From Halichondria panicea (lineage: Eukaryota; Porifera; Demospongiae; Suberitida; Halichondriidae): 64,000 nt of DNA. Position 1 is the stretch's first letter, and each line of letters starts with the position of its first letter. This document shows, piece by piece, positions 1-50,580 of the stretch. The translations under genes were made by a program, and so were the position numbers. Under the pieces are notes generated by a model. It saw nothing but the letters and a program-made list of their open reading frames with translations, did not search any database and was not told where the DNA came from. The stretch is from NCBI RefSeq assembly GCF_963675165.1, contig NC_087377.1, positions 8,263,122 to 8,327,121 on the forward strand, written 5' to 3'.

Positions 1-1957
1 TTCCCCAGCTATAACTTTTTGCAGTAGTAAACACTGATCGCTAATTGGCAGCGTTCGAATAGGTGCCAAGTAGTTCTGCTTAAATTCGGGCTTCTGTAAT
101 AGTGTCGACATTCTTAGCTTTTGTGCCTTTAGTTTCGACTGCTCGAACAGGTCCATTACCTGAACTACCAGGTCCCACACTTGCTTACGTAAGCTGGCTT
201 GAGAGAACACATTATCCTTATGTGTGTGGGATATATCCTGCAAGGTATATATAACTTATTATAATACTCATTTCCTACATTCTTATAGTTTCAAAATAGC
301 TGTTATGTGCAGTTGTAGTAAGCAGTATACAAGCTGACAAACGCATTTTCTTTTGTGCTCCTGAGTCTCAATTATACATACCTTTGGGAGAATAGCCATC
401 TCGCAAGAGGTTTTCCAATCTTGCGACTGGGCTGGGGTTTCCATCGAGAGATCTATGTCATTCAATGCATATAGTCGAGAGCGACAAGCTTCTACCTATA
501 CATGCATGTATACACATGGTTAATTAAGTGAAAGTAAAAGGTTGGCTGTAAAGCAAAACTATCACAACAATAAATATATTAGTTACTGACCAGATCGCGG
601 TGTGTAACTCGGTGAACGAAATGTGAATTGTCGTTGTGCCTTGAAGCAAGGCGAAGTGATTCTTCATCACTGAGGCCGACGTAGACATCGGCAAGAGCCA
701 CTGTGTAGTATGGGTTATCGGGATGCTCTGTTGCCAACTGATTTTTGCAAATTAAGCTATGCAATCCTCCTAGGACTTCGTACTCATATACGTTTTTGTG
801 CTTAGCTTTAAATTCTCCAGAATTGTGAACACTAGTACACAAAACTGCCATTGGGCATGCACCTGGAGCAGAGGGGTCAGCAACCATCCTCTTTTTGAGG
901 TGTCCCAAGAATGTTGAATCTGCTTCACGCAGTAGTCGTGATTTCTTTGGAGGAGCATGTAGTTGCGTTATCGGTAGTTCCATCACACCTTAGGGTTAAA
1001 AAAGACTCATCATACACTTCAGCAGCCATACAATCAAGGCACATACATAATGTCAAGAGTTCATTACGAAGAGTACGCAACTCCAATAGACTGTACACAA
1101 AAAGCATTCCTACAATCTGACATCACAGTAATACTGGCTGTATATAGTAACCGCAACTAGCAGAAGGCAATGAGTAACTATGTTATTCATTGCCTTTCCT
1201 ACTGGCAGTTGTAAATGAATAACATTAGTGATAATTATCACTAATGTTATTCATTGCAAATCTTGATAATGTACATGAATGCATTTATTATTACCTTTTC
1301 TAGCACTTTCAATTGCTTCGTCAATTGGCGCCTTGATAAATTTTCGTTTCTTTGTAGGAGAAGGTTGGTCGTACGGCAATATTTCGTTCGAAACAGCTGA
1401 AACTCTTGATGACTTTGGTGTTTTTGAAGTAGCATCCTTTGAAGTGGATGGAGGAGTAAGCTCAGCACTAGCAGAATGCCTCAATTTGTCCATAGGCTCA
1501 TTAGCTGTAGTCGCAAACGTATCCTGTAACTCATCCCATTTTTGAATGAAGTCGTAACTCGTAAGTATCCCCATGAAATTCGTAGAGAAACCCTTCGTGC
1601 AGTCATGGCGTTCCAGCTTCATAACAATCGTTCCAGAGGCACAATTGAACTGTGTAGACATTATAATTATGTAGAGCATGACTGTCACAGTAAAATTATA
1701 TACAACTTAGCTTATTACAAAATCACAAAATTACAAATTAAATTGAGGAGGATTAATTTGTAACTCACACGAACAGTGCTTGCTTGCTTTGGCCTCTTCT
1801 TGAATCTCTCCAAATCAGCTACGGTTGGTATAGTGATATCCATCACATTGCCCAAGTCTTTGTTGGCATTCACCTTCTTGATGAGCTCTCCATCACTGTA
1901 CACCAAGGACACACCATCCCCTGTACTTTCAAGATACCACTTCTTGGGCTTTGTCAT
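1..1957 (-). CDS. ParB-like nuclease-fold protein, five exons seen, 3' end outside window
   Basis: Read on the minus strand, exons 1957-1769, 1649-1295, 988-587, 488-382 and 237-1 join in phase with GT-AG borders into 430 codons without a stop; the gene continues off the left edge. Residues about 184-315 look like a ParB/Srx fold: an opening ELPITQLHAPPKKSR, the box YEVLGGLH (251-258, in place of the ParB G-H-R box) and GLSDEESLRLASRHN (286-300, resembling the ParB box that ends in E-N). Residues 1-63 are a short lysine-rich lead and 90-180 are Ser/Thr/Lys-rich, probably disordered. The start is the first ATG of the first exon. It is transcribed away from the DUF7869-type gene, with 361 bp between the two starts. 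A broken relative lies at 46740-47075. The ParB fold is family knowledge recalled from motifs; function in animals is unknown to me. I am sure of the exons and moderately sure of the fold. Confidence 0.72.
1068..1258. mobile_element. Truncated palindromic MITE in an intron of the ParB-like gene
   Basis: It matches, in inverted orientation, the complete element at 16896-17191, starting with the same terminal motif GAGTACGCAACTCCA. One terminus is present and the other is missing. The inner end holds a 42-bp perfect palindrome (1214-1255) centred on the AATT at 1233-1236. It lies wholly within the intron between exons 2 and 3, so it should not change the protein. Confidence 0.75.
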
Positions 1958-2318
1958 AATTATTCCGATCAGAGTAGAGGAAAGCTTTAGCTACAGCTAT
2001 AACTAACTGCTCACAAATCGCAAAATTTTGAATAAAAACCATGGAAACACCACGCCTAAATTACTTTCTAACAAGATTTGTTATTGATAAGTACGAGATT
2101 TCTATCAATTATTATTAATTAAGTGGGTGTCATAACGACATAAAATGTATTATTGCCTGTACTTAACAAGATTTTTTATTGATTATTGCTACATGCATCC
2201 AACAAGACTGTGTGCATGTGAGCTGCATGCTCTCTTTAGTTCTTGTTGCTAAGCAATAGTTTTAGAAACTGTACAGCTAGCTATATAGTTATTATTCCAG
2301 TGGGATAGTTCAGTTTAA
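1958..2318. promoter_or_regulatory. Shared divergent intergenic region (possible bidirectional promoter)
   Basis: This 361-bp gap separates the start codons of the ParB-like gene (minus) and the DUF7869-type gene (plus). Both transcripts must start here or nearby. It is AT-rich with TATATAG near 2282 and no open frame. The head-to-head arrangement recurs in decayed form around 47075-47280. No specific promoter element can be assigned by eye. Confidence 0.4.
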
Positions 2319-5300
2319 ATGGATTCAAGCTTTGAAACTGATTCAGAACTAGATTCGGACACTCCCCTCTCAAAGAGACCCTGCATAGAAACCTTGGAGT
2401 CTAGCTATAGCTATGATACAAGCGATGACGATGTGGCCTTTTGCTCGTCAGATACCGACACTGAATCAGACGATGATATGGTTTTCATATCTGACAAAGA
2501 AGACAATGAAATAATACCCACTGCCGGTAGTATTAATGAAGAACAAATTGAGCTGAAAGAAATTGGAATGCTACTTACTAGTAACTGTTGCATGGACCTG
2601 TGTGCGAGACAGCTTTGCGTGAATGATGTGCTTTTGTCCCGTAAAAAATTTGTTTTAATGGGGACAGTCGTTCAGAGGCAGTGGTTAACAGACAAACTGA
2701 TCGACAATAGCCACACTTCTTCTACTGGGGAGCTCAACACTACATATCTCATTGCTGGGAAAAATGTGTGCAAAAATACTTTTTGTGAAGTAAATGGAAT
2801 CTCCAAGAGCAGGCTCCAACGCATAAGAAAAGCTGTTTCCTCTGGTCATTTCAATGCGAACGAGCATGGTAACCAGGGAAAAAGACGTCCCACGTCAAGA
2901 GTGCAAGAGGCACGAGTTTGGATGGAGAGGCACTTCCACCTCATAGGCGACAAACAGCCAGACAAGAACAAAATCCATCTTCCCAGCTGGGAGAAGAAAG
3001 AGGATGTGTATGGAAGGTACAAAGGAGATATGTTGAGGGCTGAAATCTCTGAGGCTTCACTTGTGGGGTTAAGTACCTTCTACAGGATTTGGAACGAAGA
3101 TTTTCCGAATGTCGCCATTCCTGAGGTACGCTATGCTTGTTAAAGTTGTGCTACATGTATATATACCATTATATAAATCCCACTGTTTACATAATTATAG
3201 TGTCAAAAATTACTATCAGTTTTATCTATGCAGGAAAACAGATTTTCCAAGTGTGATACGTGTGTCAAATTGAAACTGGAAAAGAGAGAGTGCCTGGACA
3301 AAGATAAGCAACTTCTGCTTGACCAAGAGTTAAAAAAACATCTGGCTAAAGTCGAGTAAGTCCATTGCAATAAAATCTGCACTGTGGCACTACTATATAT
3401 ATAATGAGCGTTTGAAGTAAGAGTGTTTGGTAACCTCCAGTTTCTACATTGAGACTATACTCAATGCAAACACCCTCATACTATTGGCAATAAATTTAGT
3501 TGTGTGTTAACGTTACAGGATAGAACGTCGAAAATACCAGCACCACAGGGAAAAATCAAGATCGGAACCAACAAAATTTCTGACATTGATCATTGATGGC
3601 ATGGACCAGGCAAAGACAAACCTTCCACAGACCAGCCTAATTGCAAAATCACAGTCCAGTCTATGGAAATTAAGGACGCACGTTACTGGTGTGCTTGCCC
3701 ACACGAAAAGTCCTCATGGGAAAATCGCTTACACATATATTGATCTACTTCAATATCCACATGGCAGCAATTTGACCATTACAATCATTTTGAAGGTTCT
3801 ACTGAGCTTTGCTCGTACCAAGAAGATGTTGCCTCAGAACCTATTTCTCCAAATGGACAACACAGCCCGAGAAAACAAGAATAAGTATGTTCTTGCCTTC
3901 TGCTCTATGCTTGTGGAGCTCAACATCTTCAAAAAGGTTTGTCAGATTGTATACCATGCACTCTAAATGAATGTACTTAGATAACGGCTATTCTGAATAA
4001 TGAATAATTGTAGTCCTAAATCTCTATACTCTTGCTTATAATTATTATACTTCCATATAATCCTAATATTTACAGGTTCAGATAAATTTCTTACCCGTCG
4101 GGCACACGCACGAGGACGTGGACCAACTATTTTCAAGAATAGGTGACAAGATACGGAGGGGAGGTTGTGAGTCAATCCCAGGTAAGCAATTTTCAAACGA
4201 TTAAATTGGTTGATGTATAGCTACCTCTTCTGCTTTGTAATGCAGGGCTTCTGGCAGCCATCAGTGCAAGTTACACACCTAATCCAACATCAGAAATGAT
4301 TGATGGAGTTTGGGATTTCAAGGCGTATTTAGAGCCATATCTAAATGGGGTTGAAGGGCACTCAAAGTATGGAGTTTTTAGGTTCACGAAAGACAGTCTT
4401 GGACATGCAGAGATGCATTACAAGAAATGGTCAACTGATCCATGGGAACCCAACAAAGAGGTGGAAAATCAGGTCCTGATTGAACCGGGCTTGAAAATTA
4501 TCAAGGTTAGACTAACTTGTACGGACAGTAATACATTATTATTAATGCATGCATAATTATACTAATTGAATAAAGAGCTCTATATCTTCCTAACAGGAAA
4601 TATCTGATTGTTTGGAGAAGCCTACTTTAATGACACCCGATTTAGGGAAACTCGACCTTCCTCGATTTGTTGGTGATCTGAAGAAGTATCGACAGTGGTT
4701 GTGTTCTAGTGCGTGGAGTCATTGGGAAGAGTTTATCGAAACCATTGACGAATTGTCCAGTGTTCCTTTTATCACGTGGGACATACACCAGCTGATCTCA
4801 ACATCAATTATTTCTGCTCACAAGGTGACTACCAACCCGGAGCTAGGTCAAGACCTGACAAAGCTCCTTGATAAGGATAAAACTCCTTCCAAAAAGGTGA
4901 GAGTTATTACGTATAATTATAAGTAGCTTTTGAAGCTCTATATCTAGGTATTTACAAATTTTTTTCTGTGTAGATTAAAATCCGGAAGACCAGAGCCCCA
5001 CAAGCAAAGTCTGCAGCAGATGGGACCAGAGCCCCACAAGCAAAGTCTGCAGCAGATGGTGAACCCACGAGAGTACAATCGAGCCAATGTACCAGTCCAG
5101 CTGAAACAGATATTGAAACCTTGGGTGCAGCAGAACCCCCTGAAGTAGTCCAGCCTCAAGTAGGTGCATTTGTAGCAGTGTATTTGGATAAATACTCAAT
5201 GGAGAAGTTTCCACTGATCGGAAAGGTAACTGCTATTAACCCGAATGGAAACCACCTTCAGCTTGACTGGTATGTTGGCTCGTACTCTGGAGTATGGCGG

Positions 5301-5441
5301 GTATGCAAGCAAAGGAAGGTTGTCTGGAGTGAGGAGGTGAAGGTTGACTGTATCTTAACCACCGTAGCATTCACGGATGCGATGAGATTGTCACGGTCGA
5401 TGGTTCAAAATCTCAAGACTCGATACGAAAAATACCTCTGA
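2319..5441 (+). CDS. Intact DUF7869-type (transposase-like) protein, seven exons
   Basis: Exons 2319-3125, 3234-3355, 3519-3936, 4076-4181, 4246-4505, 4597-4896 and 4974-5441 all have GT-AG borders and compatible phases, giving 2481 nt and an 826-residue protein with no stop. Residues 1-65 are acidic; a Cys cluster CCMDLCARQLC follows; exon 2 carries FSKCDTC and a charged helix. The core has LIIDGMDQAKTNLPQ (D336, D339), QMDNTARENKNKY (D423) and VGHTHEDVDQLFS (H459, E462, D465). Three spaced acidic blocks suggest an RNase H/DDE-type nuclease; this catalytic reading is inference. Exon 7 begins with two copies of a 39-bp repeat (TRAPQAKSAADG) and ends in a Tudor/SH3-like stretch (about 734-826). 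Decayed paralogues at 14715-16830 and 47281-49641 share the exon layout, so introns predate the copies. It may be an active element gene or a domesticated one. Confidence 0.82.
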
Positions 5442-5536
5442 ACTACATTGTGTAACAGTTATTTAGTGTTGTAATTGCTTCTGTTAACTTATTAACTTTG
5501 CATGCATGCATGTACTCTAGCATAATTATGTTCATT

Positions 5537-5926
5537 GTCAACCAAGGACCCACCTTGGTCTTCACCAGCACCGTTCATTAACATACCAAGGACCCACGTG
5601 TGGGTCCTTGGTCTTCACTCGCACAGTTCATTGTCAACCAAGGACCCACGTGTGGGTCCTTGGTCTTCACTCGCACAGTTCATTGTCAACCAAGGACCCA
5701 CACGTGGGTCCTTGGTCTTCACCAGCACCGTTTATTAACATACCAAGGACCCACGTGTGGGTCCTTGGTCTTCACTCGCACAGTTCATTGTCAACCAAGG
5801 ACCCACACGTGGGTCCTTGGTCTTCACCAGCACCGTTTATTAACAGACCAAGGACCCACGTGTGGGTCCTTGGTCTTCACTCGCACAGTTCATTGTCAAC
5901 CAAGGACCCACACGTGGGCCATGATA
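5537..5926. repeat. Tandem array of perfect palindromes (hairpin array) 95 bp downstream of the DUF7869-type gene
   Basis: Units of about 53 bp repeat, alternating between two linker types (CTCGCACAGTTCATTGTCAA and CACCAGCACCGTTYATTAACA), so the true period is about 105 bp. Each unit holds a 26-bp perfect palindrome with arms CCAAGGACCCAC and centre ACGTGT or ACACGT. Six complete palindromes are present, flanked by a degenerate one at the left and a half at the right, where the sequence diverges after GTGGGCC. Any transcript would fold into serial strong hairpins. The position fits either the end of a mobile unit or a 3'-end structure. An open frame runs through it (5608-6105) but only because the repeat lacks stops. 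Confidence 0.85.
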
Positions 5927-6760
5927 AATCTAGGGACCCATGTATTGATAACTTTTTCAAATCAGTACAACCACAGATTGTTGATGTAATTATGAAGAAA
6001 AAAGTGGCCTATAATTTGAATAGTATTGAGCACCAAGGTATAACTGGGGTCCCAGGAAATGACACTATTGAACTCAACAACACTCACAAATCCACTACAA
6101 TGTGAACAAGTAGTTTCAAAAAAGTGCTGATTGTTCATACCCCCGAAATGTGAATAACTAAAAAACACACTGTGAAACAAAGGACCCCCAAAAAAGACAC
6201 TTTTATTGAACTTTAAGCAGCCTATAGTTATTGTTTGAGGGGTTTCTATGGGCTATCTTGAGACCAAGTCAAAATAGTTGAGAGAGTGTTTTAAGCACAT
6301 GGTGGAAAGAAAATATGGCTTATGCAAGAAACGAAACGCGTACGGTACGTTAATTTATATGAAGTGTACTTACAAAATAAATAAAATAAATAATTCTAAT
6401 AATTAATAAGAGCTGTACATGGAGGATCCAATACCAGATCATGTACTCACGTTCAAGTACAAACATGGACAACTGTTTTTTTTAGTTTTACTTACCCACA
6501 ATAGTGTCCGATTTTTTCATCACCCACACCTATATCACGTTGCACCTATGCAATACAATACGTGATATGTCTTCAGGTACTATCTCTCATCGAATCAACA
6601 GCGGGTGGCGGCCCTCAGGAGGTGCAATGTGAATCAAATTAATAATCATCATAAGATTTATACATTAATAATTATTGTCATAATCAAAGTTTCTTGCAGA
6701 ATGATTAGCAAATGACGATTTATGCAGGAATTTCTTGGGAATAATAGGCAGAAATTATTT
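5927..6760. other. Non-coding stretch, no gene seen
   Basis: The first 200 bp continue an open frame from the palindrome array but show no recognisable protein. The remainder is AT-rich with no convincing exon, inverted-repeat element or RNA gene. Confidence 0.5.
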
Positions 6761-6769
6761 TAGGCTTCA

Positions 6770-7387
6770 ATGGCGGCAACCAACTCTCCCACCGAATCTA
6801 CCGTAGGCGACAAACATCCGAGACAGGTTAAGTATTTACAATTAGTGCGATTGTAGCAAAGAAAAAACCAGTGGCTGAGGAATTTTTAGGTGTTCATTGT
6901 CAGAGCTGCATCCACGATTTTGGGCACCGTGTATAATATGCCCGGAAATTTTTGGCTTAGATCACTTTGGGCAGCTATTAGTCAAAAGAAGATGAGACGC
7001 TTATAGGAAAAGCACATGTGAGCGAAACGAAGACAAATGGACTCAAGAAAGGGCTGAGAAAGCAGCAGCTCCTTCTCTCCGCCAAAAAGAAGGAATATGT
7101 TTTGAAACATCTATAACAGTCCCTGACGACCTCATCAACTTTCTCCAGGCTGAGGGCACCCTGGAGGAAGTATTGAAGGGAGGAGATAGTGCAGACAGAG
7201 GCTGCAGTAGATCTGGGGAAGTATCTTCACTACGCCAACTCGGAGGCTGTAGATTGCAATGATATCGTCAACATGGTAAAAATTGAGAGCTTCATCAAGA
7301 TGTTGGCCAATTTGGGGATTGGGCCAAGTGGCCAGGTGTCTAAACTTAATGTTATTTCACAAGCCCAGACGTTTGTGATTCACCGGT
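6770..7387 (+). pseudogene. Remnant of a tyrosine-recombinase-like gene (core-binding domain)
   Basis: A possible first exon starts at 6770 (MAATNSPTESTVGDKHP) and ends at a GTTAAG donor. Two frames around 7100-7387 give FLQAEGTLEEVLKGGDSA and then VDLGKYLHYANSEAV and LGIGPSGQVSKLNVISQAQT, broken by a frameshift near 7190, and end at a GTGAGT donor. The layout (DLGKYL, a helix, then a KL-x-x-x-xA helix) resembles the N-terminal core-binding domain of the Crypton-like recombinase at 30172-32354 (DVSKFLKF ... RLAKLDTFESAL). No catalytic domain is visible downstream. I infer an old recombinase fragment; an unrelated helical protein is possible. Confidence 0.4.
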
Positions 7388-9480
7388 GAGTGTAGCTACA
7401 TGTTGTGTACAAACAATGATATCTCATTTGCAGGTTGCCAAATGACCTCTCAAAATCAATTATAGTTTTATGAATAATTATGCTGCAAAATAGTTAAGTG
7501 CGCAGCTGCATGCCAATTAAAACAAGCTAACTAGGTTCCGGGTTCCCCTCCCCAACATTTTTTTTATATTTGGGAGCTTGGATCACATGGCGCCATCCAT
7601 TGCAGTTTAACTAAGTTTCTATAATTAAGTCTGTGTTCAATATTATTGTCAAGCAAATCCTAGGGAAGAGGGGACGAATTACCCTCAATGCAGCCCTGAT
7701 TGTGTTCTCCACTTTTAGGTGGTATTTTCTGTCTTTCTTATGAGGGGACCGAGGAAATGTTCCAATTGGAAGACCTGACATGGACTATGACCATTTTCAG
7801 AGACATTATCCAGATCGCTCTTTTGATTCGCCAACTGTTCGCGAACTGAAAACGAGTCCATTCCATTTGATCAGGACTATAGTGCCACTGTCGAACGATA
7901 ACAGGGCAGCAGACTACTTAGGAGGTGACCAAGACTGCGTATACTATTGGATCGTCTGTGTTGCAGTGTGGATTTCTTGGCCAAGACGACGTCGATCTCA
8001 CGCCTAAGATTATACTATACGTTAGGAACCGATATCGAATGACAAGTCTCATTTAAAAAGGTGAATGGAGGAATTTGTTTGATATATGCAAGCAGTCCAT
8101 GTTCAATTTTTTCCCGCCTGTTACAACAAAAGACGAGTCCTCCTGCTAAGGGGTGTTATCATTATATTGACCTAAGTTCCTGTCAGATCTGCCTGCCCTA
8201 TATGTTCTGTGAGAAGAAGCTTGCCTGCCTGCACTATGTGTTCTGTGGCAACCGAGTCCATCCTGAGTAAACATTTTATGGTATGTATAAAACCTACGGC
8301 AAGAGCAGGTTAGATAAGACATTCACTAAGCTAACTACTTTGTAACTTGGTTGCCGTGCTGCGTGCAAAGCCAACGTGTGTTGACTGTGACAAGTGGGCA
8401 TAATCCTGTCCATGCTGTGAAACTAAAATTTCTAGGTGGATGGTATAAACACTATACAACCAAAATAACTCCAGCGACAGAACCTTTTGACCTATCCCTA
8501 TTCATATTCCATTGAGATGTAAAGAAAAAGAAAACAAAATGCTAGGAAAAGATCTTCTGAGATTGCTAGATACATCTTCAAAAGAATCATCTGTGTTTTG
8601 ATTTCCTAATTGTAAACTAAAACAATGCATAATTAACTTAAGTTACAGTGGTTCATATACTATATTTTGACTCGGTTTGAATGTGCTGAAGAAGGTTTGG
8701 AGCGATTAATTACGATGACCCCACCTGAATGTGGTGGTTTTCCCTGTATTTTTGTGTTTGTTTGATTGCGATGTAGTAGTAATGAAGCTCAAGACTTCTT
8801 GAAATCAATTAACAACTAGCCTCAACTGCTTCGTTCCGATGAAAACCAACTAGCTATGAGTTTGCATTAATTTATAGCATGCACGAGCAGTCCATTTTCA
8901 TTTATTAATTAACGTTGCGGTTGTATTTGAATAGCATCATGCATGGTAGATGCTAACAGTGTGTGGCACTTATTGCCCAATATGCGCAAGGAGCAACCAC
9001 ACAAGAGTTTTCGTGCTACAAAGCTATAAAATTAAAATTGCTAATTAAGGCTAGAGACCATGCACCCTTTTCGGGCAGGCCAACCGCCAATTAGAAAGAG
9101 ACAAATACGGGGATCACCCCCTCAACACGCCAATAGAACAACCGGATTAATTATGGCGTCTTGTCAAATAAGAAAACAAAACAGCAACAAACAAGCTGTC
9201 AAGCTACCGCAGTGGTTTTGCAACACTGTTTTATTATAACTACGTACAATTATAATTGTGGCGTTGTCTGAGCCAGACGGACAGCGTAATACTGTACATG
9301 TGTCACTGACTTGTCATATCATATTCCTAGCTCTATAACTATAGCAGCTACCAATAGCTAGCGTTATAGTGCAGAGCTAACTACTCAGTAGAGTAGCAAC
9401 ACTCGGTGAACAAGTTTTGCTACGCACTTTTCTGAAAAGGCTGCAATAGTATTCCAAGCAAGCAAAACTATAGTGCAAAC
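7388..9480. other. Gene-poor region with scattered repeat fragments
   Basis: Open frames at 7780-8007 and 8061-8270 show no recognisable motif and no good splice borders. Near 7660-7710 a CTCAATGCAGCCCTG segment recurs at 25725-25739. From 9340 to 9475 there is a dispersed repeat shared with 58755-58885. I see no gene. Confidence 0.45.
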
Positions 9481-10800
9481 TCGAGAACGAAACTTTATTG
9501 TCAAACAAAAAACAAATCAATAAATTAAAATCCAAGAGAACATGACTAGAGACGCTTGAATTGCAGAATGCAGAGGCTGCAAAAACGCATTGATTTACAT
9601 TAGTAAAACAGCATGCCAGCTGAGCACATTTTTACTATGGAAGTAAAATGGGTAGTAATTATGATAATGGGCATCATAGATACCGAATGCACATTATCTA
9701 ACCCATTTAGATCAACCAATTGGCTACTAGAAATGCACTAGCTTAGCAACAGTCAACCTAGCAACTGCATCACTTCTTTTAAAAATTAATATCTGAAAAG
9801 TTGGCATCTCTGTGGCTCTACTAAATCTGTGTCTCTATTCAAGTCAAAATTATAGTCCTAGCTCCACCCACAAAGCTCTTCCCTGCTTTTGCAGCAAACA
9901 AGCCTAGCATGCATACTTTAGGTATGCCATGGACTCATAATACTCTCGAACAAAGCAAAAGGAAGAAACTCAAGCTAGAATTTGCAGCAAACAAGCGGCT
10001 CTCTTGAACAAAGCGAAAGGAAGAAGACAACGCTAGAATCCCAGTACTCCTCTACATCCAGCTCCTCCCCTGTGCAGCCTTGCAGTAAACGAGCACAGAA
10101 CACTGCCCAAGAAACAAGCGGCTCCAAACAAAGCCAAAAGAAAAAAAATATAGAGCTTCCCTCTTCCATTCTACAAACTGTATACATGTATATAGAGTGT
10201 TGCTGAGTGTAGTTTCATTTGGATACAAAGATCTCACGCAGTTTCTTTTCAAGCTTCTCCCCCAAACTTAAAAAAAGAGTGTTATATAATTATACTTATG
10301 TTATTGTGCTACTAGACTAAGCATCTAGCTACAGTCATGTTACTACATGTGCATCTCATTGCAATACAATGTACATAGCCTAAAGAGAGCACGTTGCCAA
10401 GTGCTCTGTTAGAAATAGAGCACATAGCAACAATAAGCAAAAACACTCAAGTGGGATCTAATATGTCACAGTTAAAAAGAGAGAGGAGCGTGAACGGAGG
10501 GTGGCCGAGACACAGGCAGGGCTACGACAGAAGGAAGAGGAGACCCAAATTAAATTCCTCGTGCTCTTAAATGAAAAGGCCTATTATACGGCAACATTTG
10601 CAGAGCAGGACAATATTGTTTCCGCATACTGATACAATATCTACGCATTGCTTCTGACTACCGCGCAAGCTGACACACGGTATAATTTTCTGATTATAGC
10701 CCACCTGCCTATCCATCCATACAACGTCATATCGACCAAAACAGTTTACATTACTACAAGTGTTTGTGACGTAATCTTATCACAAAACACTACGTGGAAT
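9481..10800. other. Non-coding stretch with a tandemly repeated motif
   Basis: At 9890-10145 a motif of the type CAAGCGGCTC...CAAAGCRAAAGGAAGAA recurs three to four times imperfectly, ending in short adenine-rich runs. Frames are open in both strands across it for compositional reasons. No gene or element ends were identified. Confidence 0.4.
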
Positions 10801-11864: not shown

Positions 11865-12085
11865 AGCGTGGGAGGGGGAAGGGAGTTTTAGTTTTTTTGT
11901 TCAATTTAATGGGGCCAATATCAGATCAGAAGAAACAACCCCTGGCCCTTCACCCCATCAAAATTAATTAATCAAACCTTATCATAATTGTGCATATCCA
12001 CACCATCTTGAAGTTGGAGCTTGAGCTTCAAAAAATTACCGGATCTTCGCTGAAGTGTGTGCAATGGGAAATTAAGGGTGAGTGA
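11865..12085 (+). repeat. Dispersed repeat, also at 21980-22185
   Basis: The two segments align over about 200 bp: a G-rich opening, then TTTAATGGGCCA...CAGATCAG, AATYAATCAAACCT, and a block near GAGCTTGAGC, ending with AATGGGAAATTAAGGGTGAG or its variant. There is no coding sign. It looks like an ancient interspersed element. Confidence 0.6.
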
Positions 12086-12127
12086 CACGTACCTACTAGG
12101 AGTCAAGGTAGGTAGGAACCACAGATC

Positions 12128-13041
12128 AGAGGAGGTTGGACACAAAGCTAAACAGTTATAATGACATTGTCTTTATTTGGCATATTAATTGTAGTCAGCA
12201 TATAGGCCATCTTTTCATTAGATAACAGCATAGCTGAGCTATACATTTGCTCTACCCTACAACCCAGGTGTCAAGGAACGCAGTAAAATGCAGCAGCAGT
12301 AATAGTGTAGCTGCATGGGGGCCAGACCCTTTCTCATGGGATCAAGAAGAGAAAAAATTAAGGTCTGGCAAGGGTCCCCTTTACCGACGACAGTGAACTT
12401 TTGAAGTAGCAGACTTCAGGATTTTATACAGGATTTTTAGCCAGGGGGGGAAATGATGACATTTTTTTTAAAGCAAAGCAGAAAAGCGTCGCTCAAATTG
12501 ACCTCTAGTGTGTATGTACATGCTCAGCTTATGTTGTAAGGTTTAAATTTCAAAGGGTTATCATAACAATAAATGTATACATGCATTTTGTATCTGCTAT
12601 AATTGTGTAATCTCCTGTTCGAACATTTGAACTGCACCATGTACTATATCAAAATGAATATACATGTACAATGTATGCACTCCTGATGTATGTAAAACGC
12701 TTTTTCTCAACTGATACATGTATAGATACTCATTATACATGTAGATCTTCACTGTACAATTTGGTATAACATCATTCATTTCCAAGGGGGGAAATCCCAT
12801 GGCTCCCACCCCTCTGTATGAAACCCAGAGGAGGTTTGACAGGCGCAATGCAGCTCAAGTAATTAGCCTTTGATTACTCTCAGCAAAAACATTACGATGT
12901 GGGTGGATAATCAAAGGCTAATTGCCTGAGCTGCATCGTACCTCCTCTGTATGAAACCCTGACATTGCAAGCAAATAATCATGACCTTCAAGCTCACGTG
13001 ATGAATACATTAGTGACCTTTGACCCTGTCCAACCTCCTCT
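12128..13041. mobile_element. 914-bp inverted-repeat element containing a nested MITE
   Basis: The left end AGAGGAGGTTGGACA is mirrored by TGTCCAACCTCCTCT at 13027-13041. The interior has no transposase. A second, shorter member of the same end-motif family (12827-12949) is inserted within it, so this is either a nest or a fused double element. Confidence 0.6.
12827..12949. mobile_element. Short MITE, AGAGGAGG family, copy 2
   Basis: It shares the terminal AGAGGAGGT and the subterminal AATTAGCCTTTGATT with the copy at 11651-11802, with a shorter centre. The right arm has lost the GCGCCTGTC portion, so the termini are asymmetric. Confidence 0.75.
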
Positions 13042-13580
13042 GACTACATATGGCAGATCTTGTTAGTGATAGGTCAGTTTAGTTTGAGCTATAATTATGA
13101 TAAACCATGCCTAAGAACAACCCTATATAAATCAAGAGTGCATAAGAAGAGAAGAGTGTCAAACTATACTGATACTTATACACAAACACTGTGCACGAAG
13201 TAACGTGACATCCTGTCAATTGCACGTGACGTTTGCGCATAGTTACGCAACGCACAGAATTTGTTAATAGTGAGTAAAGAGTGCAAGTAAAGAGGATCAA
13301 CTCGACTATTGTCTCTATTTAGATGATTTTTGTAAAGAGATCGTCTTCTATCGTCTTCTGTAAGTGTGCAGTGAGCAGCTCCGTGAGCTCTTAACGTTGA
13401 ACGCGAACGACTAGCTAGAATTGTTCGATTACCACACCCCTAAAAACATCACGGTTAACATTTACTAGGAGATTACTAGTATAAAGTACTTTATTACGTG
13501 CGAGTCACGCTACTTTGTGCAGTGTTTGCATGTGTAAAAGTATCAGTAGGTCGACACTCTTCTCTTCTTGCTACAGTAAA

Positions 13581-14096
13581 TCATAGATTGAAGAGTTAGA
13601 GGGATAGGAAACGGTTTGTATCTCGAGTAACATCCGCGCTACGGTGCGGTTTAACCGAGGCCATCACAACAATATCTATTTCTACACTCAGTGCATAATA
13701 AACTACAGGTAACTGTGCTTAGTCCGTGCAACTCACTTATATTTCAAGGTCTATACCTATTGTAGTAGTCATAACCAGCACGCTTACACGTTACATGTTC
13801 CAATAGCTCTAAAACAGCCTTGGGAACATATAACTTTATTGGAAAGTCTCTTTTTACTGGGTGTGGTCAGTCATTAGCAAGTACTACACGTGGCTCATGG
13901 ACTAGGCGTGTTTTAAGTTGCTGAAAGAGATTATGTCTCGAGGAAACACAGCTTTGGGAGTTACCCGGCAAAAGTGTGCTTAATAGCCTTGTTCATAGGG
14001 CGTAGCGCGGATAATTTTCGAGGCTCCACTGCAGATTCAATGTAAAATCATCACGTGCACCACTCCGTTTCCTATCCCTCTCTCTTCAATCTATGA
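13581..14096. mobile_element. 516-bp MITE with about 33-bp terminal inverted repeats
   Basis: The left end TCATAGATTGAAGAG followed by GGGATAGGAAACGG pairs with CCGTTTCCTATCCC and CTTCAATCTATGA at the right. The interior is non-coding. A related single end, with TTCAATCTATAAGTAAATG and CATAATGCGGAGTG, is visible at 63580-63655. Confidence 0.75.
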
Positions 14097-14468: not shown

Positions 14469-14498
14469 AAAGCCCCCCCCCCCCCCCCCCCCCCCCCG
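14469..14498. repeat. Homopolymer run of about 29 cytosines
   Basis: An almost uninterrupted C tract follows AAAGC; the minus strand is a long G run able to form a G-quadruplex. A shorter C run lies at about 14189-14199. Length may be unreliable because such tracts are error-prone in sequencing. Confidence 0.8.
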
Positions 14499-14714: not shown

Positions 14715-16830
14715 GCAAAGCGGATTTAGCAAATGTGACATTTGCAACCAAGTTTGACCTGGAGCGTTCAAAATGTGGAGGGAGATGTGGGTTCACTGAG
14801 GAATATACATTTCATTTGAGCCGTGTTCAGTAAGTGTTAACTGTTATGTATGCATGCTATATATGTACCTCATTGGCACACTGTAACCGTATATATAATT
14901 ATAATTATGTATAAAATTGTATGTATATAATTTATGTCATGCATGGCATCATAGAAGTATATATAATGTAAGTTTCAAGACTCCCGTGCAAACCCTCCCT
15001 TATATGGACTCTTTAATCTGTAGTCATAGTGGCTGCATTTCAGGTGAAATAATGATCAGCTATAATTATAGAGTATAATCCTTGCTAAACGAAACGATTG
15101 GTATGCATGTATGTCGAGGTAACCGTAATTCAGAGAGCCTGGTTAAGAGAGTGTCTACTGTATTGATCGAGTGGGTGTGCATAAGCGTGTGAATCCACTG
15201 AGATTAAAAAGTTGAATTCAATTATAGCCTCTTTTATATGTAGCTAGTGCGTGCATGCATTGGGTGAATATTATATGGCTCATGCATGTTATTATACAGG
15301 AATTCAAGATTGATTTACGTACTACGGCCATAGAGAAGAGGCTAGATCTAATCCAGAGAAATGTGTTACCATTATCATTGACGGTATGGATCAAAGCAAA
15401 ACCAATCTTCCATGTCTCACACAAACGCCTAAATTGGTTCAAGGTTTGCAACAGTTGAGAACTCACATATCCGGGGCACTTGTTCATACAAGATCACCTC
15501 ATGGAAAGCTGGCTTTTGCATATTATTATGTAGACATGCTGCAGTATCCCCACGATTCCAACCTGACAATTCATGTGCTGTTGTCAGTTCTGAAGGAGAT
15601 GAAAGGTAAATTACCTGCAACACTCAACCTTCAACTTGATAATACCTCACGGCAGATACGTGTTGGGTTTTTGTGCCCTTCTGGTATCCAGAAAAATGTT
15701 CAAGAAGGTAATACAATCATGAAGTTTATTATACCTTCTGCATGGCTCATAATAACCATGCATCTCTCTATATTATTATGTATATAGGTGAGGGTAAACT
15801 TTCTACCCATCAGTCATAGATCTACCCATGAACACATCGACCAATTTTTCTCAAGAATATCGACACAGCTAAATCAAACAGGAGCTGAAACTCTACCAGG
15901 TAAACTTTTTAGAATCGTATAAGTCATGATTTCAAATGTGAATTTTGTAGATCTTGAAGCTCAAATTTCAGCCTCGAGTACTCCTCCTGCGACAGTTAAA
16001 ATAGTGGACAGCATTTTTGACGTCCGTTCGTGGATATCGCCTTGCCTTGAAGGACTTCATGGTCATTCCAGACCTCACTGTTTCAGATTTGTTGCCGACC
16101 CTACTGTATTAGCAGAAGACTCAAAAGTGCTCATGTATTATAGGAATTGGTGTACTTGATGCTTGGTGTGAAACGGAAGAGGCCTTGGAAATTCTTATGG
16201 TATACTATGATATAAATACCATACGGAGATAATTATAATTATGCCAAGCTTTTTTCTTAAAACTCTATACCCTTCGTTAGTTGTAAATCATTTTCAGCTA
16301 TTAAATTTGGTATGCTCAATTTTGACAACTGCATAGCGGCAAGCTAATTTCCAGTTGATATTTCATTCATTTCATGTCATGCAGGACGTACCAAGTGGAG
16401 TACCTCCAACTCTGCAGCCATCTGACCTGAAAATTGATGTACCTTTGTTTTAAGAAAATCGAGTGATTTTGTCATAGTTCCTATTGTGGTGGTGAACATG
16501 TGCACTGCACTAACCACGTCTGCAGGAAGATGCACTAAAGTACAAACGATGGCTTACAGAAACTGCTGGTGGGATCAACTAGACATCAGATCTATCTACC
16601 ATGATGAAAAGCAATCTAGTGAATGGATTCATAACTTAGAAGAAGGTAATTATAAAATTATACGTGACATTGCATGTAAAGCATAATTATAGAATTAACG
16701 ACCGTCATAATTATACCGTTATTTCTGTTACATTGTTTTAGGAAATTCAAACGAAGAACCGTCTATAGTGGACTTCTGAGAAATCCAGATTTAGCTGCTC
16801 TCTTTGCTGCAGAGGACCAACCCTGCAAGG
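14715..16830 (+). pseudogene. Decayed DUF7869-type gene, paralogue of 2319-5441
   Basis: Exon equivalents keep the order and intron phases of the intact gene: about 14715-14829 (FSKCDIC, then a frameshift), 15300-15707 (IIIDGMDQSKTNLP, LRTHISGALVHTRSPHGKL, QLDNTS), 15788-15899 (VRVNFLPISHR, THEHIDQFFSRI; phase-1 end as in the intact gene), 15951-16160 (DVRSWISPCLEGLHGHS), 16384-16452 and 16535-16645. Frameshifts occur near 14745, 15355 and 15655, and stops later. The sequence is closer to the copy at 47281-49641 (shared exon 5 type with SSTP and RSW) than to the intact gene, so at least two subfamilies exist. No ParB-like partner is visible upstream. Confidence 0.8.
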
Positions 16831-17890: not shown

Positions 17891-17898
17891 AATGCAAC

Positions 17899-44740: not shown

Positions 44741-44964
44741 CGTGTGAGTGACATTTGTTTCAGTTTGTCTAAAGGTTATTCATGTGCCCTGTAGTCATTG
44801 ATTAGAGACAAACTCAGGTTGCTGCACATTGAACATAGTTTACCTGTGCACGCTGTCTGCCAGTAGCACACACTGACGTGTTCGTAGCACTTCAGCAAAC
44901 AATTCTTCATTTCTTCAATCTTCGAGAGACTGGTGCTAATTAATGCAACATTGAATGTGCTCAC

Positions 44965-46730
44965 AGTTTTCTCGGGTATTGTATATTCAGCTGTTTTGTG
45001 GGTATACAGGGCTTTGAATTTGTTTTGTCTTCCATGCCTGCATGTTGTTCATTATCAGGAGTGTATATACGTAGTTATATATACATGTATTAATTTATAT
45101 AGCTGTACGTGCATGCATGCACATAATTATACCACGGTCCACGGGTATGTCAGCCAGGAAGAGGTTTGAGCCAATGAATAGGGTAGACAACTAGACATCC
45201 CTCATATCTTGGCAGCACATGTTTGCTTTATCCCCTTCGACCACATAAGCCCAATGTAGTGCCTGAGCTGATATATATCAGCCGAGGGGACAACAGTGTC
45301 TGTGCTGCCTGCTTTTTCTGATTTCAGAGCTGCCTCCCAGTAAGACAGAAAAGACGCCGGTATTGTTTTCATATCTGTTAGAATGTCCTGGGGTAGTGAA
45401 GGCTACGTTTGCCTCACACCACGTATACTGGAGGTAGTTATCCTGGGATGGAATTATACTTGACTTAAAAAATGTGATTATAGAATAATAATACACTTTT
45501 GAATGTGATTGTTAATTTACTTGCAAAAAGCGCTTTTCCAGAACGTGTAGAGAGGGTTCTACTATATAGCCCTGATTATAATTATATAGATCATGCATAG
45601 CAACCATGATTCTCAATATAGCCAATCACTGTTCTTATTTAATCTTTGCTACATAATAATTATTGTCTAAATGAAGTACATGACTAAATCAGTATACAGA
45701 TTTTCTAAGTTGGATAGAACACTTCCTCTAGCCAATCAGATTGCAGGCAAACATGGTCTAAGAACTGTTAATTCATATAACAACGTCCATGCAGATAGAA
45801 ATAGATTACGCTATCAGGCTATTCTATTATATTAAATACCTCTGTGCTTCTTTATGCGTAGCAACATTATTTTGTCTATCGAAAATCTTTTCAAGCGCTA
45901 TTTACACAAATTGTATACCTTTGATAACATTTCCAGTTTAAATTTATCAGGAAGGCACTGGATTGGGCTGAAATTTTGCTGTTTAAACTCGGGCTTTGTA
46001 GTCAGAGATTTTGTTGAGAGGGTCTGGTCTTTCAGCTCCCCCTCCTCGTACAAGTTCATGACCGATACAGCCAATGCCCAGACTTAAAAAAAGACAGTAA
46101 AGCTTTCCTGCTTAAAGACATTTTCCATTGTGCAGCGGCCCATATCTATGCCCATATCCTAAGATTTGGACGAATAAATTATTATGAGCTAGCCTCGATC
46201 CTAGCCCCTCTCACTAGAGGGCCTGGTAACCACCGTTTGTGCGTGGGTGGATTCAATAGTAAACTCTTTGTAGTTTATCAATTAACTTTTTATACTATGG
46301 TCACCCACGTGGTTGATTAAACTATTAGTGTCAAGAGAGAGAAATCGCCATCACAACTCTAGGCTCATACAAGGAGCACTGAGATGGCATCAAACAAGTG
46401 TCTGGAAGCAAGTAGATTTGCCAGAGCCGGTCGGTACTGACAGAAAAACGCCTACCACTCTACCACAGTACAAAAGAAGACAAAACCTGACTTTCCAACA
46501 CTGGAGAGAGCTTGAGCAAGAGCAGAACAGAAGTAGAAGCCATCACAACAAAACTAGTCGCTAGTCTAGGTCATAAATGTTGTAAGTAGCTGTGTTATTT
46601 CATTAAAACTGCTGTGATTTGTGCAATGACATCATTGTAAAATATACAATATACTGACTAATTTACTAAGATATCTCGATCCCCAAGAATCTTGGGGCAA
46701 CTGTTTCGATCAACACGTACAGCCTATTTC
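44965..46730. other. Gene-poor region with two coding-like plus-strand segments
   Basis: The frames at 45854-46087 (LYTFDNISSLNLSGRHWIGL) and 46313-46564 (basic, SRERNRHHNSRLIQGALRWH) look partly protein-like. I could not tie either to a family or give them splice borders. No RNA gene is seen. Confidence 0.3.
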
Positions 46731-46739
46731 TATTGTATA

Positions 46740-47075
46740 CATAATCCCGATGTGTCATCTTGTGGATAAAATGACTTGTGTTGTGGCGAGAGGCGAGCCT
46801 AAGTGCTTCATCGTCTGTCAGACCAACATGCATACACCTCAGCAAGGACAGTCTGTAGCAACGTATTATCTGGATACTTGGCTGCTACTATCCTTCTTGC
46901 CAAGGCCGTATGCTGGCCTCCAAGCAGCTCGTACTTGTAGGCGTCCACTCTGTTGGTGTCAAACACCTCTATACTCTCGACAGAAATACACAGAACAGAA
47001 ATTGGAGGTACACCTGGAGCAGATGGATCCTTGGTGAACTTCTTCACCACAAATACAGTGTCGACCGTTTAAGCA
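46740..47075 (-). pseudogene. Broken ParB-like gene, exon 3 equivalent
   Basis: From 47075 down: VDTVFVVKKFTKDPSAPGVP, then DAYKYELLGGQHTALARRIV and, after a one-base shift near 46825, GLTDDEALRLASRHNTSHFI and HKMTHRDY. This matches exon 3 of the gene at 1-1957 (STFLGHLKKRMVADPSAPGA; YEYEVLGGLHSL; GLSDEESLRLASRHNDNSHF). The GG-Q-H box and SDEE/TDDE box are both kept. Flanking exons are not found. It points away from the decayed DUF7869 copy that begins about 200 bp to the right, as in the intact pair. Confidence 0.75.
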
Positions 47076-47280
47076 GCGTTGTATTTTTGGTTCTGAGAGG
47101 TTTCTGGCTGGAGATCAATAGTTCCTGCATGCATGCATGTACATACAATTTCAAGCGAGAGAAGTTCAAGAAGAGGAGACAGCTAGGACTGGAATAAACA
47201 TTATTATTGTGCCTCGGTGCGCATGCGCAAGCGAAGTTGAAATTGCATGTGTAATCAGTTTTTGGAAAAAATATTTTTCG

Positions 47281-49641
47281 AAGGTGCTTTCAGCAAGTGT
47301 GATATTTGCACTGAGTTTGACTAGGAAAGAATGAAGAGTGGATGGAGATGTGGATTTAAGAAGGAGTATAGTGCATGTCAGCATGCATGGCCATATTGCA
47401 TAATATGCAACTTAGGAATGTAAACTAAATAGGACTTGACAATTAATTTTTAAACTTACGGCATATTATATATTACATATTTATCTACAGTTTGGCTGAT
47501 TCAGTTTCCATGGAAACTCTTGTAATTACAAACCACGACTATAATTAAAGAAGTAATTGATTTTCAAACTTTCTTGAATAACCGACATTGTATTATGTTT
47601 GGTATCATAATATTTGGGGTATACTGACTTATAGCACATGTACTTACACTTTATAGAGAGATTTTATTGAAAACATGCAGTAAAGATATTTTACAATTAT
47701 TAATCAACTTTATGGGTACATATTTTGAATTTATATCATGTTCAATAAGAATTATGATATCAACTTCAAACCAGGGTTATTAATTCAATTAACTGCTAAT
47801 AGACAACACTATAGAGAGTTTTTATCATTTGTACAAAAGAAATGAAAAAAAAAGTGGGAGTACAAAGATAAAATTACTCGTTGATACTTATGCGTGGTTG
47901 ATTCGTCATGGGCCTGACCAGAAGCAGTGGATCCATCTGTATCTTCAGAGGTATCAGTGTCAGAGAGAGATGCATCAGTTTCAGTTGAAACATTAAGATC
48001 AGGAAGTGAGGAATCACCATCATCAGATCGTGAACTTTGTGAGAGTTTTGCCTTCTTTGTGAGCTCTGGCTTGCTGCAGGTGCTTGCTTCTCTTGTTTGT
48101 ACGAGGCATGAATAGCTCAGGAGACAATGGATTAATGGCAGAAATAGCTAGCTAGCTAGAAATAGCTATTAAATCAGAGCTAGTGAAAAACATCTAAAAA
48201 GAAAAAATACGTTGCCATGGTGATGACGTCATTTGCGTCATAATTGCCCACAAATTTTTGCCTTTTTTGGTGGGCTACTCTATATCTCCAGAAATACTTA
48301 CTCAAATGAAATTTCGAAAAAACCATTAAATAGAGCTCTGCAAAAGCTGATGATTGACACTAACTTTACCACAAAAATGTGTTTACTACGTGAATGACAC
48401 GCAATGCAAATTATGGCCACTTATGGTGAATTGCACTATATATGAACAATATCTACAGATTTTTCATTAAGTGACTCTGTAAGTCTTTACCTTGTATATA
48501 TTCAAGTACAGATTACATTTCCAAGCAATTATTGTATATTAATTCTTTGCCTTTAGTCAGACAGCAATAAAACGTACCTATAGATTACCTGACTCGTCCC
48601 ATGTGCATATACAACATCAAAAATGTAATTATGGGTGCATGTTGGGACTCACAATTATGCATACGAATTTTATTCCATCTTGCTATTATTATTATGGTGA
48701 CAGGCAAGAAAGGCAGAAGTATTATGGTCATAGGGATAAATCTAGAACAAATCCAGAGCACAGTGTTACCATTGAATCATCATTGATGGCATGGATCAGC
48801 ACAAGACCAATCTTCAGATCCCAAAGTCTGTGCAGGGATTGCTTCCTCTCAGAACACACGTCACTGGAGCGCTAGTACACACCCGGGCCCCTCATGGAAA
48901 GTTAGCTCACGTCTAGATCTACATTGAATATGCCTCATGACTGCAACGTTATGGTTCATGTGCTCAAATCCTTGATCATCTCCCACCAGTTCTCAACATC
49001 CAACTAGACAATACAGCAAAAGAAAACAAAAACAAGTTCTTCCTGATCCTGCAGGGTTTTGCGCATTGTTGGTAGACTGGAAGATATTCACATAATTATT
49101 ACATAGCGACTGCACCACTGCCCTGCCCTAATGACTAATTATAACCATTCATGCATACATTGTCAATGCATGGTTGCCCATGCATGCATATGACACTGCA
49201 TGTGTATACATTGTGCTACAGCTTTTCTCAAGGATATCTAAGCAGCTCACTCTAAAAGGAGCTGAATCTTTACCAGGTAATATGCATTCTTGAATAAGTA
49301 TAGGTATTAATTATGCATGGTAGTCGATTATAATTGTAGCTATATAATTATACTTCCTATAAAGGTTGGTTTTGAATTGATTGTAATGATTATTTCATGT
49401 ATAAGTGTACAGATCTCCCAAAGCAGATTACACAGTCAAGCACACCTACCCCAAAGGTTGAGATACTCAATACTATTTCTGCTGTGAGGTCGTGGCTGGA
49501 ACCTTGTATTGATGGACTAAACGGTGACTCTTCCACATTGCTTCAAATTCTTTTTAGAAGATGGGAAAGCTGTGTTGTATTTTCGGCATTGGAGCAGTGA
49601 TGCTTGGTGCAATGCTGATGTAGCAGTGAAACTACTTCCGG
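47281..49641 (+). pseudogene. Decayed DUF7869-type gene (third copy)
   Basis: Exon equivalents: about 47284-47385 (AFSKCDICTEFD, then a stop), 48704-49082 (frameshifted, with MAWIST replacing the DGMDQ site, LRTHVTGALVHTR and QLDNTAKENKNKFF), 49222-49276 (only LFSRISKQLTLKGAESLPG remains, the HTHEDVDQ half lost) and 49413-49641 (SAVRSWLEPCIDGLNGDS, YFRHWSSDAWCNADVAV). It is nearest to the 14715-16830 copy. It forms a divergent pair with the ParB-like remnant at 46740-47075. Confidence 0.78.
47386..48690. other. Long intron or insertion within the third DUF7869 copy
   Basis: AT-rich sequence between the exon 2 and exon 3 equivalents, far longer than the matching intron of the intact gene (163 bp). 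It probably contains an unrelated insertion, but no terminal repeats were recognised. The frame 47927-48115 is Ser/Glu-rich and not convincing. Confidence 0.35.
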
Positions 49642-49884
49642 CAAGTCTGCATGTATATACTAACTTTTTTTTTGTCAGTGATCATACTAAATGCCTCACA
49701 AGCACATGCATATGGCAACACCGTTTGTGCAAGGGTGTATGCAGTTGCTAATAATATAGCGGTGTTTTACAGACGCCAAAGTTCCAACATAATTATATAT
49801 TCTACAGCTCTCTAGGCCCTGATAATACACCCATTCCATTCTTGAATTCTTGAAAAATGTGCCTATAAAAAATTGGATTTTACA

Positions 49885-50015
49885 CTATATAGCGTATTTT
49901 TGAGGGTGATTTTCGCTGATTTTGTGCATTGGGTTAGCATGCAATCCTATACACAAAGATGAAGTCCACAAAAATTGTTAGAATTATCTGCTATAACATG
50001 CAAAGATGAAAGGTG
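49885..50015. mobile_element. Truncated CCGTATAGC-family MITE
   Basis: TATATAGCGTATTTTTGAGG, then GATTTTGTGCATTGGGTTAG and ACAAAAATTGTTAGAATTA, follow the left half of copies 3 and 5. The right terminus is missing. Confidence 0.5.
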
Positions 50016-50239
50016 TAATAGATCTAGTAGCAATGTAACACCTAATGTTGTGTATGTTTCATATGATAAAAAATATCTCTCTGTTAGCTTCTCCAAATCT
50101 AGTATGCTAAACAGAGTCAATAAAAACAAGTTAACACAACCATGGAATACAACAATAACATAACAATGCAGATAAGATTTACAATTAGAATTCTATTCTG
50201 ATCCTACAAAAGAGAAAGGGAACTTTTAACAGTGTGTGG

Positions 50240-50580
50240 ATGCATGCATTATGGTTTCATTTGTGTTTTTTGCAGGTTTTTGGTTTTTTCTACTTCACGC
50301 TTGGAAACATATTTCTCAAGTACCGGTCACGTCTATATAAGTTATGTAAATCTGGTTGCAATTGTCAAGAAGAAGCTTATTGACAAATATACAATGATGC
50401 CTGTTATCCTTGAACCTTTCATTGCAGATGTTGTAAAATTAGTAAGGATAATATCCTAGCACCTTTCATTTCATTGCAGGTGTTGTAGTACATTCTTGTC
50501 CTCCCATGCACAGGAATTAAGAGGGGTACACCTTTCCCATCTCCCACTGCAGCAGAAATGTTATGGCACAATACCGTTAA
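50240..50580 (+). pseudogene. MHDVLEG-type transposase-like gene, FYFTLGN exon (copy 2)
   Basis: After TTTTTTGCAG the frame encodes FGFFYFTLGNIFLKYRSRLY, then by a frame change LVAIVKKKLIDKYTMMPVIL and EPFIADVVKL, ending at a GTAAGG-type donor. A second small exon follows CATGCACAG. The segment is about 85-90 percent identical by eye to 61343-61621, so the two are recent relatives or one duplicated unit. Confidence 0.6.

Follow-up and report, generated by a model that had tools for sequence, protein, structure and literature searches.

A divergent DUF7869 and ParB-like gene pair in the sponge Halichondria panicea probably forms the coding part of a cut-and-paste DNA transposon

A stretch of 64,000 nucleotides from the demosponge Halichondria panicea (assembly GCF_963675165.1, contig NC_087377.1, here C1; C1:8263122-8327121, hereafter the window) carries at its left edge a DUF7869-type gene on the plus strand and a ParB-like gene on the minus strand, head to head. 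Wnt genes, a family of animals, are present in this genome (10 matches, best E 5.3e-54) and gave no match in 14 control genomes that appear to be prokaryotes, which marks it as that of an animal. Our analysis indicates, with a probability of about 0.82, that these two genes make up the coding part of a cut-and-paste DNA transposon, the DUF7869 protein being the transposase and the ParB-like protein an accessory factor that binds palindromes in the element. Ends, target duplications, near-identical and deletion copies and an empty site establish that such elements are mobile. The original prediction, made from the sequence of the window, had proposed a mobile unit built from these two genes; it is borne out by common ends lying outside both genes, 4-bp duplications and an exact empty site. 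The element represents an animal form of a two-gene transposon type that is known but little studied.

Ends, target duplications and an empty site

The element that holds the pair, W1, measures 8,247 bp (C1:8261165-8269411), and the window contains its right part, from the left edge to position 6290 (Table 1). Leftward extension of the locus and its comparison with itself located an inverted repeat at C1:8261165 and window position 6290. The terminal inverted repeats (TIRs) are 33 bp long and perfect, start with AACAC and are flanked on both sides by TTAA. The pattern of these ends, with at most three mismatches, has 10 matches in the 131-Mb genome, and its reversed control has 0. The same ends bound a broken relative on C7, in which about 10 kb lie between the two genes and GTTA stands on either side. 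A deletion copy on C8 spans 1,715 bp, is flanked on both sides by TACA and keeps the array motif described below eight times on the left and five times on the right.

A second family, E, comprises seven loci (two on C8, one on C3, two on C1, one each on C12 and C11) that are 98.0-99.98% identical in pairwise pieces longer than 1 kb. Its ends read AACACATTCACTGTTAAAAGTTCC, with inverted ends of 24 bp and more, and the corresponding pattern, again with at most three mismatches, gives 23 genome matches and 0 in the reversed control. E1 (9,805 bp) is flanked by TCTT, E6 (8,573 bp) by ATAT and E7 by ATAG. Perfect 4-bp target duplications surround six of the seven copies with both exact ends (W1, the C7 relative, the C8 deletion copy, E1, E2, E6 and E7). 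When the flanks of E1 are joined with a single TCTT, the product is identical to C8:3305006-3305205 across 200 of 200 bases (100%), and two further unfilled paralogues of this insertion site match at 93%. Inverted ends bounding the copies, a duplication of fixed 4-bp length and the E1 empty site identify these elements as TIR cut-and-paste DNA transposons.

Some observations weigh against this assignment. The target duplication of E2, the exception among the seven copies, is imperfect. An empty site was recovered for one of three copies tested: no clean one was found in the genome for E6 or for W1, the latter giving a single 77% match over positions 32-109. The candidate ends of a further locus, C1x, which are less sure, show no clean target duplication. 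For E3, E4 and E5 no left end could be located, and for the C14 copy no end at all.

Three paralogues of the site in which E1 is inserted lie close to it, at intervals of about 5 kb (C8:3294404-3305205). At C3:1893821-1893869 two E-family ends stand back to back with 1 base between them, and seven E-end-like motifs, on one strand only, are spread over 0.5 Mb at C13:5504396-5982395, perhaps as part of a different dispersed repeat.

Broken relatives of both genes had also been reported at 46740-49641 of the window. This second pair is real and head to head, but it is larger: by alignment with E1 it occupies 44828-50242, collinear with E1 1473-9797 and 82-84% identical in the main pieces. It has no nucleotide match with W1 at E 1e-5 and represents an ancient remnant of an E-lineage element, not a duplicate of W1. 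The two pairs lie less than 50 kb apart, as they would if host genes had been duplicated as a block. Such a segmental duplication is vanishingly improbable, given that the pairs lack nucleotide similarity and have different ends and that target duplications and the exact E1 empty site are present; for the copies with exact ends it is refuted.

Table 1. Features of the window that belong or relate to the two-gene element (positions in the window).
Feature	Position	Strand	Details
W1 element	1..6290	.	right 6,290 bp of 8,247 bp; left 1,957 bp outside window, from C1:8261165; perfect inverted ends and TTAA duplication; both ends also found by pattern search
Accessory gene, ParB-like and methyltransferase-like	1..1957	-	exons 1957-1769, 1649-1295, 988-591, 495-382, 237-1 (exon 5 crosses left edge); exons 6 and 7 outside window
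ParB-like domain (exon 3)	591..988	-	from alignments of relatives; matches to ParB/sulfiredoxin-type families weak
Shared divergent promoter region	1958..2318	.	361 bp, from both gene models
DUF7869 transposase-like gene	2319..5441	+	exons 2319-3125, 3234-3355, 3519-3936, 4076-4181, 4246-4505, 4597-4896, 4974-5441; 826 amino acids
W1 right subterminal array	5542..5918	.	8 copies of CCAAGGACCCAC, 6 in inverted-repeat sites with GTGGGTCCTTGG; left array (7 copies) outside window
W1 right terminal inverted repeat	6258..6290	-	33 bp, same as left end; minus strand reads AACACTCTCTCAACTATTTTGACTTGGTCTCAA
Target duplication TTAA, right copy	6291..6294	.	
Third DUF7869 relic, unpaired	15317..16156	+	
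E-family relic	44828..50242		methyltransferase-like part 44828-45502; ParB-like pieces 45705-47260 (-); DUF7869 pieces 47286-49930 (+); right end 50029-50242
Decayed right inverted end of E-family relic	50219..50242	-	5 mismatches in 24

Pairing of the two genes across the genome

Transposase loci fall into 16 with a DUF7869 core, found with the W1 protein, and 16 more distant ones found with the Pfam model alone. Both counts are lower bounds and leave out two short fragments that lack the core (at C12:2619829 and, for the C8 deletion copy, at C8:3288991). A ParB-like gene or its remnants is kept, head to head, at 12 of the 16 W1-lineage loci. Eleven have opposite-strand, divergent ParB-like matches (W1, the C7 relative, E1, E2, E3, E4, E6, E7, C14, C1x at C1:8.42M and the window relic); the twelfth, E5, retains by DNA alignment a stretch read as exon 1. 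About 25 ParB-like places, each taken with 5 kb on either side, in 131 Mb lead one to expect some 0.03 of 16 loci to be paired by chance, against the 12 found, copies within one family being non-independent. The original prediction had judged a chance neighbourhood unlikely and called for a count of such pairs; in the H. panicea genome the pairing is indeed well above chance. The orientation is divergent at every paired locus found, in the animal as in the plant-like contigs described below. Two loci located through the ParB-like gene also retain traces of a transposase on the other strand: pieces of it at C12:2.47M (tblastn 3e-4) and its last exon on C4 (compared by eye).

The partnership is not seen everywhere, and this counts against it. 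Four of the 16 loci have no partner (C1:8278k, C5:5151k, C5:5550k and C16:2220k), and the ParB-like loci on C6 and at C12:4.44M have no transposase within 9 kb. Five more ParB-like loci show no divergent partner in the genome-wide match lists (C1:15.66M, C1:8373k, C4:3750k, C1:9453k and C1:8433k), the last of them lying 6 kb from the C1x transposase on the same strand. The 16 distant DUF7869 loci have no ParB-like match nearby in those lists; among them C2 alone was examined.

The DUF7869 gene encodes a probable transposase

Both genes of the window had been described as intact. They are open throughout, but the window edge cuts the ParB-like gene. The 361-bp promoter region that they were said to share is confirmed by the gene models (1958-2318). 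The plus gene is spliced from seven GT-AG exons into 826 codons, and its protein holds a full DUF7869 domain (PF25273; E=2.7e-72, 242.8 bits against a cut-off of 26). In the alignment of the DUF7869 core, D17, D104 and D146 are invariant in five of five rows, C2 among them, in agreement with the three acidic blocks noted earlier. The core thus has the three conserved acidic residues of DDD/E enzymes, and these aspartates would be catalytic.

The DUF7869 protein has no match at E up to 10 among sequences of solved structures, and the structure predicted for exon 3 from a two-row alignment reached a predicted local distance difference test score (pLDDT) of 49 and was left unused. Scans of viral contigs with the ParB-like alignment, the DUF7869 protein and the DUF7869 alignment, whose reach was limited to pattern coverage, gave no confirmed giant-virus or phage relative of the gene pair. 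The name DUF7869 was not met in the literature searched.

Between W1 and the C7 relative, the transposase gene has undergone 4.5 synonymous and 5.5 non-synonymous changes (ratio of non-synonymous to synonymous rates, dN/dS, 0.34; binomial 0.047 for 5/10), and exons 3-7 of the accessory gene 12 of each (dN/dS 0.29; binomial 0.003). The C7 transposase copy carries an in-frame stop. These values, from one copy pair with few changes, suggest that both proteins were under constraint before the C7 relative broke.

C2 is a distant DUF7869 element of 3.3 kb (L025 1360-4654) with 33-bp perfect inverted ends, TGTGATGC, and a single open frame of 683 amino acids. It resembles W1 in its DUF7869-type core, with the three aspartates aligned. 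No ParB-like gene was found in it, a further point against a two-gene system.

The accessory gene joins a ParB-like domain to an altered methyltransferase-type domain

The minus gene of W1 has seven exons, is open throughout and encodes 724 or 730 amino acids according to the last splice site. Its intron 2 contains a perfect 42-bp palindrome (window 1214-1255), which looks like a small hairpin element and forms part of a short repeat whose 79% relative lies at window 17027-17200.

A ParB-fold DNA-binding or nuclease protein had been predicted here. What we find is a ParB-like domain, recognised through weak matches and fused to a methyltransferase-type domain whose sequence is altered in this animal; our data lend no support to nuclease activity of the ParB-like part. 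Compared with the ParB-like domain of the window, those of E, C14 and C1x show 44-47% identity.

The ParB assignment itself has much to contend with. The accessory protein of the window has no match to ParB-type families, and the leads from its relatives are weak: DUF6551 at 0.0028 (C14 copy) and 0.039 (C6), a PHROG ParB-like partition protein at 0.0053 (C14 copy) and, for a profile of the ParB-like domain, sulfiredoxin structures at 0.43 and up. Comparison of that profile with one bacterial ParB returned a probability of 0.4%, and a structure prediction for the exon from a two-row alignment was poor (pLDDT 44) and unused. PF02195 (ParB) has no match at E up to 10 in the window protein, its ParB-like exon, four relatives or the plant-like proteins, and we therefore name the domain ParB-like only. 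Matches to designed dTor proteins (best 2.5e-5) cover 25-28 positions and were taken as chance, though they outscore the sulfiredoxins. A ParB fold of the accessory protein is, from these comparisons, weakly supported. The domain might instead bind DNA through a fold unrelated to ParB/sulfiredoxin, with no more than the short motif Y.Y...GG.H in common, as the missing PF02195 match and the failed profile comparison would allow. We consider this quite unlikely in view of three weak ParB/sulfiredoxin leads over overlapping regions and of the ParB-methyltransferase fusion reported for a similar algal transposon in the passages of PMC12477816 that describe it.

As to the methyltransferase-type domain, the window protein has no match to PF01555 (N6_N4_Mtase) at E up to 10. 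The DPPY-type catalytic motif and the FxGxG motif are the names given to the motifs of N6_N4 DNA methyltransferases. W1 reads ITSHSENM and VLDITSGNE where the plant-like protein of L030 reads ADIPYGF and VLDLFSGTG, and so departs from both. C1x reads FTGLPE and IIDATQSG, and E1 reads LADIP, adjoining an intron border that leaves the next residue uncertain, and VIDATSESG. In C14 the place of the S-adenosylmethionine (SAM)-binding motif reads VLDATESG, and the catalytic motif was not found. None of the four families read (W1, E1, C14 and C1x) has an unaltered SAM-binding motif, and the domain has probably lost its activity in the animal, to judge from these motifs. That E1 has kept ADIP, with which the plant-like catalytic motif begins, speaks against such a loss.

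Palindromic arrays lie just inside the ends

In W1, CCAAGGACCCAC has seven copies on the left, 327-705 bp inside the end, and eight on the right, 390-748 bp inside the end. The element holds seven inverted-repeat sites, against a shuffle mean of 0.05, and 3 occur in 38.5 kb of the remaining window. The other families carry arrays with motifs of their own. E1 has two copies of CCTAAATTTAGG on the left and four on the right; E2 and E6 retain these places, and E3, E4, E5 and E7 retain the right-hand ones. C14 has TGTACAAATTTGTACA four times on the left and eight times on the right, and C1x has TGTACAAATTTGTACA or its core three times on the left and once on the right.

Our first, two-sided palindrome statistic is reached in 0 of 200 shuffles each for E1, C14 (tested on a stretch cut around its arrays) and C1x. 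W1 does not stand out by this statistic, which 170 of 200 shuffles reach, because the filter discards arms of two letters. A test with arms of 10 does detect the W1 array; it gives no excess for E1 and C1x, because their palindromes are shorter, and finds none in the left part of the C7 relative or in the ParB-less C2. In the plant-like contigs, inverted repeats, mostly of the AAGTCGATGC type, lie in the shared promoter (L028, 8; L033, 9; L030, 2; L029, 1).

The array motif differs between W1, E and C14/C1x, and together with the ParB-like protein this suggests a dimeric binder with family-specific sites. On the other side, the C8 deletion copy would have retained its arrays whatever the internal deletion. 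A ParB-like locus with no detected transposase, C12:4.44M (L022), has two equal inverted-repeat sites, ATTTGCTATT, at L022 6093 and 6262.

Relatives outside the sponge genome

A scan of 84,980 prokaryote species genomes returned 11 loci. Seven are eukaryote-looking contigs (L027-L033) in a cyanobacterial 'Trichormus' bin (CAKZGI01) and probably represent contamination of that record; these plant-like contigs presumably come from the fern Azolla, a host of such cyanobacteria. An eighth locus, L034, is a short match of 50 residues in a bin named Candidatus Arcticimaribacter. The remaining three, L035-L037, in Thiomargarita and Legionellales records, are 25-28% identical and resemble the distant, ParB-less C2 type; they are possible bacterial members or transfers.

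A ParB-like gene lies divergent to the transposase gene in all four plant-like contigs that extend far enough upstream (L028, L029, L030 and L033), the other three having only 0.5-0.6 kb upstream of that gene. The plant-like elements resemble those of the sponge in the divergent pair, the palindromic arrays and the AACAC ends (both in L029, the right one in L030 and L033). The two L029 ends are imperfect copies of each other and are less sure, and no target duplication is seen there, which tells against the assignment. Unlike the sponge elements, they mostly encode the transposase in one long frame, with a core 39-42% identical in all seven contigs, and they keep the methyltransferase motifs and place their arrays in the shared promoter. 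The spliced L030 protein matches PF01555 in its C-terminal part (E=4e-13) and phage DNA methyltransferase families across both halves; phage records are 23-30% identical to its methyltransferase part among the 15 of 88 matches listed. L030 also has a frame resembling a retrotransposon integrase.

Sola1 elements make 4-bp target duplications. Membership of our element in Sola1 is plausible, the 4-bp duplication being a fit, but we do not claim it. The original prediction had presented the two-gene design as unusual, and here a precedent exists. The passages of PMC12477816 on Ectocarpus Sola1-1_Ec32 describe a 21.5-kb brown-algal Sola1 transposon with a 1104-amino-acid ParB-methyltransferase gene opposite the transposase. 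The enzyme is predicted there to make N4-methylcytosine (4mC) or N6-methyladenine (6mA), and self-binding and self-modification are suggested; similar proteins of green- and red-algal transposons are cited (Iyer, Abhiman and Aravind 2011; Petroll et al. 2025). The likeness to our element lies in a DNA transposon with a ParB-like and DNA-methyltransferase gene on the strand opposite the transposase. It is one of description, not of transposase sequence, and Sola1-1_Ec32 differs in size (21.5 kb against 8.2-9.8 kb) and in its methyltransferase motifs, which are altered in the animal. Those passages on Sola1-1_Ec32 say nothing of target duplications or palindromic arrays. Sola2 elements, compared likewise by the description in part of PMC3627910, share 4-bp duplications and short inverted ends and differ in their accessory protein, Fanzor1. 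In the literature searched for ParB with transposons, the Ectocarpus paper was the sole match, and no animal case was reported.

Proposed mechanism for the two-gene transposon

Based on these data, we propose that the DUF7869 protein acts as a DDD transposase: it would cut at the AACAC ends and join them to 4-bp staggered cuts in the target. The ParB-like/methyltransferase-like protein would be an accessory DNA-binding protein that recognises the palindromic arrays of its element. Since the animal arrays lie just inside both ends, it would there help to unite the ends or to load the transposase; in the plant-like elements the arrays lie in the shared promoter, and it could therefore also set expression. 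The plant-like methyltransferase, with its motifs kept, may mark the element. In the animal, where the SAM-binding motif is altered and the catalytic motif altered or incomplete, binding is probably the sole remaining role.

The transposase might alternatively recognise both ends and arrays by itself, with the ParB-like protein as passenger cargo or regulator. Subterminal repeats do matter to the transposase-derived Kat1, according to part of PMC4763223, and the inverted ends of C2 suggest that a DUF7869 fold may move without a ParB-like partner. However, C2 showed no inverted-repeat array, and the partner is kept in four families and in the plant-like contigs, always divergent, with a dN/dS of 0.29 between W1 and the C7 relative. 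We regard recognition by the transposase alone as rather unlikely. It is likewise rather unlikely that the accessory protein serves chiefly to shield the element from silencing or to mark it epigenetically; on this view it would bind the element and, in plants and algae, methylate it to evade or make use of host chromatin control, and in the animal would only compete with host factors. The PF01555 match of the plant-like copy would suit such a role, as would the self-modification proposed for Ectocarpus in the passages cited from PMC12477816; against it stand the altered SAM-binding motif of W1, E1, C14 and C1x, the altered catalytic motif of W1 and C1x, and the constraint that the gene still shows.

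Going beyond the proposal of a transposase with an array-binding accessory protein, we raise one extension tentatively, as speculation. The system may be an ancient two-protein transposon type common to animals, plants and algae, in which the ParB-like protein and its family-specific arrays would form a parB-parS-like module that loads, spreads or bridges and so pairs the ends. Each family would have its own specificity, and the methyltransferase would be a former marker that is now a dead scaffold in animals.

In Pfam the function of DUF7869 is given as unknown, and the ends, 4-bp duplications and empty site now give it a likely role as a transposase. A ParB-like/methyltransferase partner, reported for algal transposons, appears as a lasting partner in animal and plant-like DNA. 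The palindromic arrays offer a directly testable candidate binding site, and the altered motifs of the animal methyltransferase may separate DNA binding from DNA modification.

Other features of the window

A third DUF7869 relic of the window stands unpaired (Table 1), with no ParB-like match within window 12001-18000. Two minus-strand open frames, neither with a Pfam match at 0.01, extend over 578 amino acids at 52002-53738 and 305 amino acids at 30172-31089.

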